This document shows positions 30,536 to 36,748 of a stretch of DNA of 45,099 nucleotides, in pieces (position 1 is the first letter of the stretch; each line of letters starts with the position of its first letter). A program made the position numbers and the translations under genes. Location: assembly GCA_003241895.1 (NCBI GenBank), contig QBLY01000022.1, positions 1 to 45,099 on the forward strand, in the 5' to 3' direction. Origin of the DNA: Lysobacteraceae bacterium (GTDB taxonomy: Bacteria; Pseudomonadota; Gammaproteobacteria; Xanthomonadales; Xanthomonadaceae). The notes below the pieces were generated by a model, which was not told the DNA's origin, did not search any database, and saw only the letters and a list, made by a program, of their open reading frames with translations.

Positions 30536-30611
30536 GGGGGGGTAGCTCAGCTGGGAGAGCGCATCGTTCGCATCGATGAGGTCGTGGGTTCGATCCCCAT
30601 CCTCTCCACCA
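30536..30611 (+). tRNA. tRNA-Ala (anticodon CGC)
   Basis: 76 bases, CCA encoded. Acceptor GGGGGGG pairs with CCTCTCC, giving the G3-U70 wobble pair that defines alanine tRNAs. U8 A9, a D-arm GCTC/GAGC, the anticodon stem CATCG/CGATG with loop TTCGCAT (anticodon CGC at 30569-30571), and a T-loop GTTCGATCC are all present. Decodes GCG, a frequent codon in this GC-rich genome. Confidence 0.96.
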
Positions 30612-30618
30612 AGTTTCC

Positions 30619-30650
30619 AAAGGCCGGGCTTCATGCCCGGCCTTTTTTTT
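30619..30650 (+). terminator. Intrinsic terminator of tRNA-Ala
   Basis: AAAGGCCGGGC/GCCCGGCCTTT with a short TTCAT loop, then eight T. It begins 8 bases after the tRNA CCA end. Confidence 0.93.
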
Positions 30651-30748
30651 GGCTCTTCTTCGGGTAAAGATCAGGAACCGGTGGCAGCAGCCGTGAAACG
30701 CCAGGAACAGGGTCGCCAGCTGACGACCCTTGCTTGAGGGAATCCGCG

Positions 30749-31666
30749 ATGAAGGGAAAGACGCCCACCGAAACGTTCGACTGCGTGATCGTAGGCGCGG
30801 GTCCGGCCGGATTGGTCGCTGCGATCTACCTCGCCCGCTTCCGGCGCTCGGTGCTGGTGATCGCGGACGGGACCTCGCGAGCGAGGCATATCCCGCGATC
30901 CCACAACATCCCGGGCTTCCCCGAGGGGATCCCCGGTCCGGATATCCTTCGTCGGCTCCGGCGCCAGGCGAAAGACGCAGGGGCAGCCATGCGCAAAGAC
31001 CGCGTGGACAAACTGAGCCATGTCCCAAAGGGCTTCAAGGTCGGTATTGGCGGAACGCACGTCCTGGCGGCAACCGTGATCCTGGCCACGGGATCGAGCG
31101 ACCACCGGCCGATTCCCGGCTTGTCGTCAAAGATGACGTGGGACGGGAAGGTGCGCTGGTGCCCGATCTGCGATGGCTATGAATCGATGGACCGTCGCAT
31201 CGTACTTGTCGCCGACAGCGCCCACGGCTCGGACCATGCACTGTTCGTCCGGACGTACACCTCGGACCTGACGCTGGTTGTGGTGCCCGGCGGAGTACCC
31301 ATGGCTGGACCGGACCGCCGGCAACTTTCGCTTGCGGGCATCCGGTTGATCGAGGATTCCCCCGTCAAAGTCGTCGTGGGTGCGGACGAAGGTGTGCTCA
31401 AGCTGAGCGGCGGCGAGTCCTTGCCGTTCGATGTGCTGTATCCGATGACGGGATCGCATGGCCGCTCGAGCCTCGCGCGCGCACTTCATGCGCGCTTTAC
31501 CCGTTCCGGGGACTTGCGGGTCGATGCCCACCAGCAGACCTCGGTCAAAGGGCTCTACGCGGCCGGCGACATCGTCTCATCGCTCAAACAGATCAGCGTC
31601 GCCTTCTCCGAAGGGGCCAAGGCAGCCACGGCGATCCACCGGTCTCTGCCGCCGAATTTCCGCTGA
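30749..31666 (+). CDS. Thioredoxin-reductase-like NAD(P)/FAD oxidoreductase
   Basis: 305 residues from ATG 30749 with a GAGGG site about 9 bases upstream. FAD loop CVIVGAGPAGLVAAIYLAR (residues 12-30), redox pair WCPICDGYE (Cys138, Cys141), and the second FAD segment KGLYAAGDIVSSLKQISVA. The pyridine-nucleotide loop that in TrxR reads GGGDSAxEEA is degenerate here (RRIVLVADSAHGSDHALFV). It therefore resembles TrxR but probably does not reduce ordinary thioredoxin the same way. Arg codons CGA and AGG and other less biased codons differ from neighbouring genes, and it stands alone between a tRNA and the thr operon, so horizontal gain is possible. Confidence 0.85.
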   Translation: MKGKTPTETFDCVIVGAGPAGLVAAIYLARFRRSVLVIADGTSRARHIPRSHNIPGFPEGIPGPDILRRLRRQAKDAGAAMRKDRVDKLSHVPKGFKVGIGGTHVLAATVILATGSSDHRPIPGLSSKMTWDGKVRWCPICDGYESMDRRIVLVADSAHGSDHALFVRTYTSDLTLVVVPGGVPMAGPDRRQLSLAGIRLIEDSPVKVVVGADEGVLKLSGGESLPFDVLYPMTGSHGRSSLARALHARFTRSGDLRVDAHQQTSVKGLYAAGDIVSSLKQISVAFSEGAKAATAIHRSLPPNFR

Positions 31667-31690
31667 GAGCAGGGTTGCCCCTCCAGCCGC

Positions 31691-31720
31691 TTGACAGCGC
31701 GCGCGGCCGCCCGGCACAGT
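31691..31720 (+). promoter_or_regulatory. Candidate thr operon promoter
   Basis: A perfect TTGACA at 31691-31696, 18 bases, then CACAGT at 31715-31720 (a weak -10). Transcription would begin at or within a few bases of the leader ATG at 31727. Confidence 0.5.
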
Positions 31721-31726
31721 CGAGGC

Positions 31727-31801
31727 ATGTCCCGGCACCTCACCACCACGACCATTACCACCACTACCCTCGCGGTGGTGCGGTCGGTCTTGCCTGGATA
31801 A
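31727..31801 (+). CDS. thrL: thr operon leader peptide (24 residues)
   Basis: ATG 31727 to TAA 31799-31801, preceded by GAGG. The peptide is MSRHLTTTTITTTT followed by LAVVRSVLPG, with eight Thr codons in nine positions and an Ile between them, plus Leu and Val codons downstream. This is the classical Thr/Ile-sensing leader seen in E. coli thrL, though the sequence differs. Ribosome stalling at the Thr codons is expected to control the RNA switch that follows. Coding of a stable peptide is not implied. Confidence 0.9.
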   Translation: MSRHLTTTTITTTTLAVVRSVLPG

Positions 31802-31884
31802 CAAATCCACCCACGGCCCCGCACCTCGACAGAGGCGGGCCGGCATCTCCCTCCCCTGAAACGCTGCGCGGCCTCCTCCGGAGG
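31758..31884 (+). promoter_or_regulatory. thr translational attenuator (mutually exclusive leader RNA structures)
   Basis: Five alternating segments can be traced. (1) CACCAC in the Thr codons, 31759-31764, pairs with (2) GTGGTG at 31775-31780. (2) GGTGCGG at 31777-31783 is the exact complement of (3) CCGCACC at 31819-31825. (3) within 31815-31835 folds with (4) GAGGCGGGCC up to 31841. (4) GAGGC at 31832-31836 is complementary to (5) GCCTC at 31871-31875. (5) CCTCC at 31872-31876 pairs with the thrA Shine-Dalgarno GGAGG at 31880-31884. No U-run follows the 3:4 hairpin, so the output is most likely translation initiation. Base pairing was checked by eye only. Confidence 0.7.
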
Positions 31885-31888
31885 TTGC

Positions 31889-34384
31889 ATGAACGCGTTG
31901 ATGCTCGAAGAAAAACCCACGTCGCCCGCTGCCCTGCGCACCCGCGCGCACAAGTTCGGCGGCAGTTCGCTGGCCGACGCCGCGCGGATCCGGCACGTGG
32001 CCGACCTGCTGCTGGCCGCCGACGAACCCGGGCAAGTCACCGTGGTGTCGGCCATGCAGGGCGTCACCGATGCCCTGATTGGACTGGCCGACGCCGCCAC
32101 CGCCGCCCGCGACTGGCGCCCTGCCCTGGTCGCCCTGCGCCAGCGCCACCTCGAGACCGCCCGCGCCCTGCTCGGCGACGACGACGGCGACCTGCACGCT
32201 TGGCTGAACGCGCAGTTCGAACAGCTGGCCGCCCTGCTGCAGGCCACCGCCGTGCTGGGCGCGCCCGGACGGCCGGCCTTCGAGCGCATCCAGGGCCTGG
32301 GCGAAGTGTGGTCGGCGCGGCTGCTGTGGGCGCACCTGTGCTCGCGCGGCGCCGACTGCGCGCTTCTCGATGCCCGCGAGGTGCTGCGCGTGCGGCACGA
32401 AGAGCTGGGCGTAGCCGTGGATTGGCCCGCAAGCCGCGACAACCTCAAGCGCTGGCGCACGGCCAATCCGCAGCCCCGCGTCGTGGTGACGGGCTTCGTG
32501 GCCGGCGGCGAGGACGGCCTGCCGACGGTGCTGGGCCGCAACGGCAGCGACTATTCCGGCGCCATCTTCGCGGCGCTGTTCGAAGCCGACGAACTGCATA
32601 TCTGGACCGACGTGGACGGCGTGCTGTCGGCCGACCCGCGGCTGGTGCCCGAGGCCGTTCCGCTGCCGGCGCTGAGCTATCGCGAAGCCTGCGAGCTGGC
32701 CTACTTCGGCGCCAAGGTGATCCACCCCCAGACCCTCACGCCGGCCATGGCACGCGGCATGCCGGTGCAGATCCGGAACACCTTCCGCCCGCAGGTGCCG
32801 GGCACGCGCATCGCCCTCGATGGCGGTCCCGGCGGGCCGGTGAAGGGCCTCACGCTGAGCAGCGACCTGGCCCTGGTCAGCCTCGAAGGCGCCGGGCTGA
32901 TCGGCGTACCGGGCACGGCCGAGCGCGTGTTCGCGGCGCTGCACGCGGCGCGCATCTCGGTGGTGATGATTTCGCAGGGGTCGTCCGAGCATTCGATCTG
33001 CTGCGTGGTGCGCAGCGGCGAAGCGGTGGCTGCGCGCGTTGCGCTGCTGCGCGCGTTCGACCGCGAACTGGCCGCGGGCCAGGTGCAGGGTGTGCAGTTG
33101 ACCGACGGCGTGAGCGTGCTGGCGGCCGTGGGCGACGGCATGGCCGGCACGCCAGGCGTGGCGGCGCGGCTGTTCGGAGCGCTGGCGCGGGCGCGGGTAA
33201 ACATCCGTGCCATCGCCCAGGGCGCCTCGGAGCGCAACATCTCGGTGGCGGTGGCGGCGCAAGACGCCACCCGCGCGCTGCGGGCCGCGCACGCCAGCTT
33301 CTGGCTTTCACCCCAGACGGTTGCGCTGGCCGTGATCGGGCCCGGCAAGGTTGGCGCGGCCCTGCTCGACCAAGTGGAAGCGGCCCTGCCACGCCTGCGC
33401 GAGGCTGCGGGCCTGGACCTGCGGCTGCGCGCGCTGGCCGACAGCCGCCGGCTCTGGCTGGGTGAGCATGGCGCGCCGGGGACCTGGCGCGAACACCTCG
33501 CCAACGCTGCCGACGGTGACCTTGATGCGCTGGCGCCGCACCTGCTGGGCGCCCACCTGCCGCACTGCGTGATCGTGGACTGCAGCGCCAGCGACGCCAT
33601 CGCCGAACGCTACGCGGGCTGGCTGGCCGCCGGCATCCACGTGATCACGCCCAACAAGCACGCCGTCGCCGGGCCGCTGGCCCGCCGCCAGGCCATTGCC
33701 GCCGCCAGCGAGGCCAGCGGCGCACGGCTTCGCTACGAGGCCACCGTCGGCGCCGGCCTGCCCGTGATCCAGACCCTGCGCGACCTGTTGGACACGGGCG
33801 ACGAACTGATCGCGGTGGAAGGCATCCTGTCGGGCACCCTGGCCTGGCTGTTCAACCGCTACGACGGCTCGCAGCCGTTCTCGGCGCTGGTGCGCGAAGC
33901 CCACGCGCTGGGCTACACCGAGCCCGACCCGCGCGAGGATCTTTCGGGCCAGGACGTGGCGCGCAAGCTGGTGATCCTGGCGCGTGAGTCGGGCATCGCG
34001 CTGTCGATGGCCGACGTGCAGGTGGAAGGGCTGGTGCCCGAGAGCCTGCGCGGCGGGTCTCGCGAAGACTTCATGGCCTCGCTTGCAGACTTGGACCAGG
34101 CGATGGCGAAGCGCCTGGCCGATGCCGGTTCGCGCGGCCAGGTGCTTCGCTACGTCGCGCGGCTCGGGCACGATGGCCGGGCCAGCGTGTCGCTGGTGGA
34201 ACTGCCGCGCGACCACGCCTTCTCCCACCTTCGACTGACGGACAACATCGTGCAGTTCACCACCCACCGCTACCGCGACAATCCGCTGATCGTGCAGGGC
34301 CCTGGTGCCGGGCCCGAAGTGACCGCGGCCGGCGTGTTCTCCGACCTGCTGCGGCTGGCGTCGGCGCTGGGGGCGCGGCTGTGA
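31889..34384 (+). CDS. thrA: Bifunctional aspartokinase / homoserine dehydrogenase
   Basis: 831 residues. Residues ~15-290: aspartokinase ([46 protein letters not shown]). ~310-460: two ACT regulatory modules ([44 protein letters not shown]). ~470-831: homoserine dehydrogenase, with NAD loop [15 protein letters not shown] and the catalytic segments [10 protein letters not shown] and [19 protein letters not shown]. Carries the first and third steps of the aspartate route to threonine. Start ATG 31889 with a GGAGG site that is itself sequestered in the leader. Ends overlapping thrB. Threonine inhibition is expected from the family. Confidence 0.97.
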
Positions 34385-35310
34385 GTCCGCCCGCCAGCGC
34401 GCGCGCCTTCTCGCCGGCCTCGGTGGGCAACGTGGGCGTGGGCTTCGATATCCTCGGCCACAGCCTGGAGGGCCCGGGCGACATCGCCACCGTGCGCTGC
34501 ATCAGCGAGCCGGTGGTGCGCATGGCGGCGATCCGCGGCGGGGTGGCAGGGCTGCCGATGCAGGCCGAGCACAACACGGCGGGCGCGGCGTTGATCGCCT
34601 TGCGCGACGCGCTGGGGCTTTCCTGCGGATTCGAGATCGAACTCGACAAGGGCATCGCGCTGGGCTCGGGCCTGGGTGGCTCGGCGGCATCGTGCGTGGC
34701 CGCGCTGGTCGCCGCGAACGCGCTGCTGGACGCGCCGCTGGCGCGCGAGGCGCTGTATCGGTTCGCGATGACCGGCGAAGCCGTGGCAAGCGGCGGGCTG
34801 CACGGCGACAACGTCGGGCCGATGCTGGTCGGCGGCCTGGTGCTGGCCACGGCCGATCGCCTGGTGCCGATCCGCGTACCGGCGCACTGGCACTGCGCCG
34901 TGGTGCGGCCGCACTTCGCGCTGGAAACACGGGTGGCGCGCGCCGCCCTGGCGGCGCCGTTCGCGCTGCATGAGTTCGTGACCCAGAGCGCGGCCCTGTC
35001 GCAGGTGCTGCTGGGCTGCGAACGTGGCGACGCGGCGCTGGTGCGCGCCGGGCTGCACGATCACCTCGTGGAGCCGCGGCGCGCTTCCCTGATCCCGGGC
35101 TTCACGGGCGTGAAGCAGGCGGCGCTGGACGCCGGCGCGATGGGCGCCAGCATTTCCGGAGCCGGGCCGAGCGTGTTCGCCTGGTTCGAGGACCGGGCGT
35201 CGGCGGTGACGGCCGCGGCGGCGATGGTCGCCGCGTTTGCACAAGCGGGACTGGGCAGCGATCCGCACGTTTCGCCGGTATCGGGTCCGCGCGCGGAGGT
35301 GCTGGCATGA
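34381..35310 (+). CDS. thrB: Homoserine kinase
   Basis: GHMP-family kinase, phosphorylates homoserine with ATP. 309 residues from GTG 34381, which overlaps the thrA stop (GTGA). The ATP loop is [14 protein letters not shown] at residues 91-104; [16 protein letters not shown] near the start and [16 protein letters not shown] near the end are the other two GHMP motifs. Ends overlapping thrC by four bases. Confidence 0.97.
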
Positions 35311-36626
35311 AGTTCCCGAGCACGCGCGGCCTCGCCGCACCCGCCGGGCTGGGTGAAGCCCTGGCCGCAGGCCTGGCGCCGGATGGGGGCCTGTATGTGC
35401 CGGAAGCCCTGCCGCGGTTTTCGCCGTCGGATTTCGACGGGCAAGACGATCTGCCTTCGGTGGCGGCGCACCTGCTGCGGCCGTTCTTCTCCGGCGATCC
35501 GCTGGCCGGCGCGCTGGACGCGATCTGTCGCGAGGCCTTCGCGGTGGAGCCGCCGCTGCGCGGATTCGGCGCTGCCGGCGACCTTGTACTCGAGCTTTTC
35601 CACGGCCCCACCGCCGCCTTCAAGGACTACGGCGCGCGCTTCCTTGCCGCCTGCCTTGCGGCGCAATCCTCCGGCGATGCGCCGCTGACGATCCTGGTCG
35701 CCACCTCCGGGGACACGGGCGCGGCGGTGGCGGCGGCCTTCCACAGGCGGCCCGGGTTCCGCGTGGTCATCCTGTATCCCGACGGCCGCGTGTCGCCGCG
35801 GCAGGCGCACCAGCTGGGCTGCTTCGGCGACAACGTGCAGGCCCTGCGGGTGCAGGGCAGCTTCGACGACTGCCAGCGCCTGGCGAAGGCGGCGCTGGGC
35901 GACGCCGCGCTGCGCCGCGACGTGCCGCTGAGTTCGGCCAACAGCATCAGCCTGGGCCGGCTGCTGCCGCAGATGACCTACTACGCCTTCGCCAGCCTGC
36001 AGCACTGGCGCCGGCATGGGCGGCCGCTGTCGTTCGTGGTGCCCACCGGCAACCTGGGCAATGGCCTGGCCTGCCTGCTGGCCCGTCGCATGGGCCTGCC
36101 GATCGGCGATATCGCCCTGGCCAGCAACGCCAACGCGGTATTGCCGGAATTCTTCGACGGCGGCGACTATCGCCCGCGCGCCAGCGTGGCCACCCTGGCC
36201 AACGCCATGGACGTGGGCGCACCCAGCAACTTCGAGCGGCTCAGCTGGCTCTACCCCGACCCGGCGCAGCTGCGCGACGTGGTGCGGGCCGCATCGGTGG
36301 CCGACCCACAGATCGAAGCCACGGTGCGCGACGCCCAGGTTCGGCTGGGTGAAACCCTGTGCCCGCATACGGCCACGGCGGCCTGGCTGCTCGGGCAGCT
36401 TCGGGCGCAGGGCCTGGCCGGGGACGCCTGCATCGTCGGCACGGCCCATCCGGCCAAGTTCCCCGAGGTGGTGGAGCCGCTGGTGGGCGGGCCGGTACCG
36501 CTGCCCGAGGCGCTGGCGGCCATGCTCGCCCGGCCCAGTCACGCCGAGCCCATGGCGGCGGACGAAGCGACCCTGGCGGCCCTCCTGCGCCGGGGGCCGG
36601 AACCCGGGCCGGGGTTTCTGCGATAA
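35307..36626 (+). CDS. thrC: Threonine synthase
   Basis: PLP enzyme converting O-phosphohomoserine to threonine. 439 residues. PLP lysine is Lys106 in [31 protein letters not shown] is the phosphate-binding loop, and [18 protein letters not shown] plus [11 protein letters not shown] are further family blocks. The N-terminal MKFPSTRG follows the proteobacterial type. Start ATG 35307 overlaps the thrB stop as ATGA. Last gene of the thr operon; a tRNA-Arg follows 11 bases beyond. Confidence 0.97.
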
Positions 36627-36637
36627 TTCTCGGGCTT

Positions 36638-36714
36638 GGCCCCGTAGCTCAGCTGGATAGAGCGTCCCCCTCCTAAGGGGAAGGTCGTACGTTCGAATCG
36701 TATCGGGGCCGCCA
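36638..36714 (+). tRNA. tRNA-Arg (anticodon CCT)
   Basis: 77 bases, CCA encoded. Acceptor GGCCCCG/CGGGGCC, D-arm GCTC/GAGC, anticodon stem TCCCC/GGGGA with loop CTCCTAA (anticodon CCT at 36672-36674), T-loop GTTCGAATC. Reads the rare AGG codon. A GATAAT element at 36622-36627 overlaps the thrC end and may be its -10. tRNA-Arg(CCT) is a frequent integration site in bacteria, but no integrase or repeated att half is visible here. Confidence 0.96.
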
Positions 36715-36721
36715 TTTTTCC

Positions 36722-36748
36722 TGGCCGCAACCGGCCAATTGCTTTTTT
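36722..36748 (+). terminator. Intrinsic terminator after tRNA-Arg
   Basis: TGGCC/GGCCA stem around GCAACC, followed by ATTGCTTTTTT. It ends only about 11 bases before the aldehyde dehydrogenase start, so readthrough or a hidden promoter is needed for that gene. Confidence 0.65.

Follow-up and report, generated by a model that had tools for sequence, protein, structure and literature searches.

A candidate translational attenuator ahead of thrABC in the Lysobacterales, possibly derived from the classical threonine attenuator

In the attenuator of the Escherichia coli thr operon, stalling of the ribosome on the leader peptide frees segment 2 of the leader RNA, and the helix of segments 2 and 3 (written 2:3 in the following) acts as antiterminator, that is, as the ON state. 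Translational attenuators of the ermC type act at the ribosome-binding site instead: the Shine-Dalgarno (SD) sequence is held in a hairpin, the other arm of this hairpin has a rival partner, and control is exerted by a ribosome on a leader open reading frame (ORF). Here, we analyze the leader of the threonine operon thrABC in a stretch of 45,099 nucleotides (nt) from a Lysobacteraceae bacterium (assembly GCA_003241895.1, contig QBLY01000022.1), which we refer to as the window. As the best explanation, with a probability of about 0.4, we propose that this leader is a ribosome-mediated attenuator with translational output, which arose from the classical thr attenuator when the U-run was lost and opens thrA through a helix between segments 3 and 5.

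The likeness to ermC-type attenuators would lie in the predicted closure of the SD, a putative competing partner of the other hairpin arm and a proposed control by the ribosome on the leader ORF. Here, however, the inducer would be uncharged Thr-tRNA and not an antibiotic, the operon is biosynthetic, and the hub of the switch, segment 3, is contested by the additional segments 4 and 4'. The LEU element of actinobacterial leuA, in which the Leu codons themselves are described as the partner of the SD in the basal part of a pseudoknot (PMC1262725), likewise combines an amino acid leader peptide ahead of a biosynthetic gene with alternative structures involving the SD; a comparable pair of Thr codons and SD was not found at p<0.05 in our 816-pair window scan (see below), which included no dedicated test of that pair. 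In the same order as the window, the met operon of Xanthomonas campestris carries an S-adenosylmethionine (SAM)-I riboswitch that is described to act mainly at translation, through an anti-SD/SD switch and without a Rho-independent terminator; it differs in sensing SAM and initiator tRNA directly, and an excerpt of the source mentions no leader peptide (PMC7270179). Finally, a paper on leaderless transcripts in mycobacteria reports Cys-rich upstream ORFs before a biosynthetic gene, with regulation presented as speculative (PMC4633059). These are likewise small ORFs rich in the end-product amino acid, but they belong to Actinobacteria, concern cysteine and have no homology to the Thr leader. 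Among the papers listed in our literature searches, some of which listed only part of the matches, no title or abstract opening concerns a threonine translational attenuator or a thr leader from this order. Thr attenuators of Xanthomonas may be included in the comparative analysis of proteobacterial attenuators by Vitreschak and co-workers (2004).

The sensor part of the element resembles the classical one. The Rfam model RF00506 (Thr_leader) aligns over its full length (1-118) to positions 31725-31844, with 21.2 bits (E 0.074) against a gathering cut-off of 55 bits. The Thr-codon leader peptide and the 1:2 and 3:4 structure of the model are present, and its consensus can be aligned with segments 2, 3 and 4 of the element. 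By contrast, the consensus U-run has no counterpart in the alignment and none follows directly after 3:4, while the element adds segment 4', segment 5 and an SD hairpin; its leader ORF appears to be leaderless and, compared with that of E. coli, extends past segment 2. Given the shared segments and the missing U-run, the sensor is common to this element and the enterobacterial attenuator, but the terminator is not. The RF00506 cut-off was reached in none of 229 gammaproteobacterial genomes sampled; weak hits in 71 of them were not used, as many are probably plain terminators.

The lack of a T-tract had been noticed in an earlier note on this DNA, whose sequence letters and coordinates all proved correct on re-reading. 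We found no terminator-like site in 31500-32100 and no conserved U-run over 134 relatives. In the interval that begins at segment 4 and ends 20 nt downstream of the thrA ATG, 5/134 relatives have a run of at least four T and 8/134 have five T within some 8 nt; in L057 and L148, at least, these are located in the SD spacer. Ordinary transcriptional attenuation at 3:4, by a terminator that needs no U-run, would agree with this helix being strong and coevolving (see below). It is nevertheless very unlikely, since a conserved T-rich tail is missing, since the same genome uses U-run terminators (one such hairpin, with its U-run, is found at 30619-30652, some 1.1 kb upstream), and since it leaves the pairings 5:SD, 3:5 and 4:4' unexplained.

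Relatives were drawn from two overlapping sets, the best 80 of 102 loci encoding ThrA relatives and a second set of 100 loci from ThrA relatives; among the resulting 156 regions, 134 are distinct, the window included. A Thr-rich leader was detected by script in 74 loci of the first set. As for the other six, the upstream sequence is incomplete in L033, which keeps the downstream part, and in L047; the element is visible in L076, where the leader was not recognized; and no element was seen in L068, L075 and L079. In the second set, 81 loci were parsed by script and 11 by eye, so that the element is found in 92 and was not seen in 8 of the 100. Searched across entire genomes, a model of the element's sequence matches 28/121 sampled from the order, in four families (one via a single weak hit), and 3/185 from the class, all in the window's own family; due to strict filters, these counts are lower bounds. 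Sequence comparison thus shows a variant of ribosome-mediated attenuation that has been conserved among relatives.

To identify coevolving pairings, we compared the energies of cognate duplexes with those between unrelated genomes (<65% identity), averaged in 31 clusters, for 18 segment pairs. As in most tests, 129 sequences were included, with segments based on the alignment; L043, L046, L048, L050 and L059 were dropped for a poorly aligned leader tail. The cognate duplex is better in 26/31 clusters for 2:3 and for 4:4' (p 5e-6 each), in 24/31 for 3:4 (p 2.5e-5) and for 1:2 (p 8e-5, but only 76/129 sequences), and in 22/31 for 5:SD (p 0.002). These pairs remain significant when corrected for the 18 comparisons, though 5:SD barely does so (about 0.04). 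The earlier note had proposed 2:3 and 3:4 as alternative pairings next to an SD-sequestering hairpin, and all three are borne out by their coevolution; segment 4', which competes with segment 3 for segment 4, it had missed. An earlier run with 71 of 75 sequences (L043, L046, L048 and L050 dropped) gave better cognate duplexes in 77-87% for 2:3, 3:4, 4:4', 3:5 and 5:SD. In an alignment of 39 sequences, 2:3 is paired in 96.0% and 3:4 in 89.1% of cells, values that 1/500 and 6/500 within-column shuffles reach. Likewise, the 816-pair scan, which is uncorrected (best p 2e-4) and therefore ranks pairs but proves none, places 3:4 on top, followed by the tail extension of 2:3 and by 4:4', with 5:SD and 1:2 among the better pairs. 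Only 2/200 dinucleotide shuffles of 31727-31920 fold at least as well as the window (z -2.5). The leader structure exceeds chance, being kept in relatives with coevolving helices.

Other pairings were rejected as conserved features, namely 2:5 (13/31 clusters), 4':SD (15/31) and 4':5, which tends in the wrong direction (cognate better in only 9/31, p 0.012). This also applies to a pairing of segment 2 with thrA codons, though it is long in some Lysobacter: in L057, L060, L062, L064-L066, L070 and L083, segment 2 (GCGGACG) complements thrA codons 2-4 (CGTCCGC). The same loci have an extra Thr codon right behind segment 2. In L215-L219 and L221, which belong to the more distant family f178, segments 2 and 3 are both altered (e.g. 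GGGTCGGGG with CCCCGCCC), which by eye amounts to a compensation of 2:3 as a whole; the thrA genes read from this family have GTG as start codon.

At the downstream end of the leader, the anti-SD GCGGCCTCC (31868-31876) and GGAGGTTGC (31880-31888) are predicted to form a hairpin of nine pairs with the loop TCC, larger than the one described in the earlier note. The SD is locally paired (P>0.5) in 132/134 relatives, compared with 71% of 670 shuffles; in loci without the leader, local SD pairing is 0.32-0.93 where the start has an SD, and several starts have none. By prediction and coevolution, the SD of thrA is thus sequestered in a hairpin. Given this, the coevolution of 2:3 and 3:4 and the absence of a U-run, translation is probably the level of output, as had been suggested before, but the route of opening drawn at the time was not supported as a conserved mechanism. 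Should translation be the output, the helix 2:3, which means ON in the enterobacterial attenuator, would mean OFF here.

The route in question led from threonine starvation to 2:3, to the capture of segment 5 by segment 4 (GAGGC:GCCTC) and thereby to an open SD. In the window, a fold with 4:5 indeed lowers the cost of opening the stretch from SD to AUG to 7.9 kcal/mol with segment 2 free, compared with 13.9 when a ribosome occupies the leader stop; the values for L004 are 8.2 and 12.8, and the window, L004 and L005 keep this direction under a larger ribosome footprint. However, the gain shrinks to 1.2 kcal/mol in L005 and 0.6 in L006, and the best SD-open fold of the window lies 8.5 kcal/mol above 4:4' with 5:SD. 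Over the order, 4:5 stands apart from the other segment pairs of the earlier note in showing no coevolution (cognate better in 16/31 clusters, p 0.92, and in 51% of the 71 sequences), and 4:5 helices of at least six pairs are rarer than in shuffles (29/129, 47.6 expected). Equilibrium folding for each ribosome state modelled did not reproduce the switch either, as the SD is mostly paired throughout (mean unpaired 0.14-0.20). Moreover, the sign would be reversed: under the conserved pairings, the SD is the only partner left to the anti-SD once 2:3 has formed, so that thrA would be closed. A favourable 4:5 helix is predicted for the window and its closest relatives alone, the mechanism of SD opening is probably not the one drawn, and we give this scheme little chance.

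We favour 3:5 as the opening helix. Sequence comparison reveals a widespread complementarity between segments 3 and 5 that would release the SD. Helices of at least six pairs occur in 89/129 relatives, with 25 expected from shuffled segments, and the cognate duplex is better in 96/129 sequences. In the 39-sequence alignment, 88.6% of 3:5 cells are paired, compared with 37.5-54.0% when the partner is slid; at one position, five U-A and six U-G pairs stand in place of C-G. Among 136 sequences, the compensated form GCTCCGC:GCGGAGC is found in eight and three further forms in one each: GGCCCGC:GCGGGCC and GGCCCG:CGGGCC, the two of them with one-base deletions on both sides, and GGTCCCG:CGGGACC. 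In the last of these, from L219, segments 3, 5 and the SD arm are altered together.

In the proposed mechanism, 5:SD would be the default, with thrA off and, through overlaps of 4 nt, thrB and thrC off as well. As segment 3 has the partners 2, 4 and 5, and segment 5 the candidate partners SD and 3, the SD can be open only if segment 3 is off both 2 and 4. The release from segment 4 would be favoured by 4:4', and only the capture of segment 5 by segment 3, around a folded 4:4', would open thrA. The decision would rest with segment 2: while 2:3 stands, segment 5 can pair with the SD alone, whereas a ribosome that is stopped where the Thr run ends would cover segment 2, set segment 3 free for segment 5 and thereby open thrA. 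This corresponds to the ermC logic of A:B and C:D against B:C, where A would be segment 2, B segment 3, C segment 5 and D the SD. In 64/70 leaders, the last Thr codon starts 2-11 nt before segment 2; given the size of the ribosome footprint, a ribosome stalled there would reach segment 2. The distance from the start of segment 2 to the end of the leader stop is exactly 25 nt in 62/70 leaders; in the window, this stop sits in the loop of the extended 2:3 helix. In predicted folds of 71 sequences, 3:5 exceeds 3 bp in 3 with segment 2 free, in 20 with segment 2 masked and in 28 with a ribosome at the stop, while 5:SD averages 6.8, 5.3 and 4.8 bp, respectively. The opening cost is 11.9 kcal/mol with segment 2 free and 9.2 with the ribosome at the stop; 89/129 sequences go in this direction, and 8/129, including the window, L004 and L005, go the way of the earlier note by >1.5 kcal/mol. 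That a ribosome over segment 2 opens thrA is, however, a weaker inference.

Several results speak against this mechanism. On the cluster level, coevolution of 3:5 is absent (15/31, p 0.54). Within-column shuffles come close to its alignment value (87.4%, with 25/500 reaching 88.6%), and 16/500 shuffles match its covariation score; a single pair is changed on both sides, as in the shuffles. A mismatch interrupts 3:5 in the window and L004-L006; 10/136 sequences, like the window, have only GGCC:GGCC, and the best helices differ in register among some relatives. In the folds, 3:4 exceeds 3 bp in 53/71 sequences with segment 2 masked and in 47/71 with the ribosome at the stop, and is thus commoner than 3:5, while the SD is mostly closed in every ribosome state, at the values given above. 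The difference in opening cost exceeds only modestly that of a control in which segment 2 and the tail were shuffled (2.64 compared with 1.82), and it flips under a larger ribosome footprint; after these two controls, we dropped the energies as proof of the sign. Furthermore, most Thr codons are too far upstream to mask segment 2: they are common from about -39 to -7 nt relative to it, and the first one of the run is found at -26 to -38 in 48/70 leaders. Together with the coevolution of 1:2 and the homology of the sensor to that of E. coli, this distance favours the classical sign. Yet an early stall would leave segment 2 free and thus close thrA under starvation, which is biologically senseless for a biosynthetic operon. 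Given this conflict, either the late stalls that mask segment 2 are the ones that count, which is our choice, or the output is not the initiation of translation.

The latter would apply to a classical sensor with Rho-dependent output. Here, a stall would lead to 2:3 and 4:4' without exposed C-rich RNA; without a stall, 3:4 would form, the C-rich segment 4' would be exposed, thrA would be untranslated because of 5:SD, and Rho would end the transcript. In such a system, 1:2, 2:3, 3:4 and 4:4', all of which coevolve, form a single chain of alternatives, the homology to Thr_leader and the mostly upstream position of the Thr codons are accommodated, and the same idea is weighed for terminator-less Cys leaders of Mycobacterium (PMC1262725). 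We still consider it unlikely, as its antiterminated state keeps 5:SD closed (>3 bp in 65/71), so that thrA would stay untranslated, and as it gives 3:5 no role. Alternatively, the attenuator might have decayed to sensor remnants kept by chance, with thrA constitutively low. The loci of both sets in which no element was seen and the patchiness of thrA in the genus would fit such a history, but coevolving helices and a fixed distance between segment 2 and the leader stop are unexpected of a relic, which makes this most improbable.

Another point absent from the earlier note is the apparently leaderless start of the leader peptide. From the spacing of the predicted promoter elements (Table 1), transcription of the window's leader would start at about 31727, at the leader ATG itself. 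Among the 134 loci, 132 have TTGAC 35-43 nt ahead of an in-frame leader ATG, at distances of 35 (n=3), 36 (n=63), 37 (n=38), 38 (n=22), 39 (n=1) and 43 nt (n=5). As it lies at 35-39 nt in 127/134, the transcription start would be at or a few bases from the leader ATG, and nearly all relatives examined seem to share a leaderless leader ORF. A strict consensus promoter scan found no promoter. In L017, L018, L020 and L061, a TAGAAT box in the spacer ahead of segment 5 resembles a -10 element; a second, internal thrA promoter is possible in these loci.

Table 1. Features of the thr leader and operon in the window.
Feature	Position	Strand	Description
Predicted -35 element	31691..31696	+	TTGACA, 36 nt before leader ATG
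Predicted -10 element	31715..31720	+	CACAGT, weak; proposed from spacing
Leader peptide ORF	31727..31801	+	MSRHLTTTTITTTTLAVVRSVLPG, then stop; Thr-rich, 24 residues, putatively leaderless
Segment 1	31742..31768	+	Thr codon run with one Ile; partner segment 2
Segment 2	31777..31797	+	Core GGTGCGG (31777-31783) and leader tail; partner segment 3
Segment 3	31815..31825	+	GGCCCCGCACC; putative switch hub, alternative partners 2, 4, 5; CCGCACC 31819-31825
Segment 4	31830..31841	+	CAGAGGCGGGCC; partners 3 or 4'; GAGGC 31832-31836; 3:4 hairpin 31815-31841
Segment 4'	31849..31858	+	CCCTCCCCTG; pairs with segment 4, competing with 3:4; also in window fold
Segment 5 (anti-SD)	31868..31876	+	GCGGCCTCC; GCCTC 31871-31875, CCTCC 31872-31876
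thrA SD and spacer	31880..31888	+	GGAGG (31880-31884); closing arm of 5:SD hairpin
thrA	31889..34384	+	Bifunctional aspartokinase - homoserine dehydrogenase; ATG 31889
thrB	34381..35310	+	Kinase of the GHMP family, from its context a homoserine kinase; starts with GTG
thrC	35307..36626	+	Threonine synthase; ATG start

The start of thrA lies 87 nt past the leader stop, and thrABC spans 31889-36626, with stop-start overlaps of 4 nt each between thrA and thrB and between thrB and thrC. A tRNA gene lies on either side of the operon, and behind each of the two comes a hairpin whose tail is rich in T (regions 30536-30652 and 36638-36737). Among the best 80 of 102 loci, the closest one is L004 (Arenimonas sp.), whose ThrA is 96% identical; the genome of the window probably belongs to Arenimonas. 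Of 16 further genomes sampled from the window's genus, just 4 carry a close relative of this ThrA, and the rest match only weakly; the thrABC operon thus seems to be patchy there. The N-terminal extension of ThrA ahead of its HKFGG motif (31889-31960 in the window) varies among L004-L083 and comprises tens of residues in some Lysobacter, whereas E. coli ThrA is not known to have such an extension. In the part of the hits that was read, we saw no His leader like the Thr leader in the same genome; the ORF upstream of hisG in this genome (L204), which ends just before hisG, resembles a TrpR-type repressor by eye and is not a His leader.

The full scenario, in which the thr attenuator of the Lysobacterales turned from transcriptional to translational, 2:3 changed from an ON helix to an OFF lock, the new helix 3:5 became the ON state and the leader peptide is leaderless, is a tentative one, and on balance we doubt that it is right in all its parts. 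If true, it would provide an example of a textbook transcription attenuator that lost its terminator and yet still regulates, via the ribosome-binding site, with a comparison base of more than 100 genomes. It would pair an amino acid sensor with apparent leaderless initiation, and it would cover the thrABC operons of Stenotrophomonas, Pseudoxanthomonas, Lysobacter, Dokdonella and their relatives, where the Rfam model stays below its cut-off in the genomes tested.

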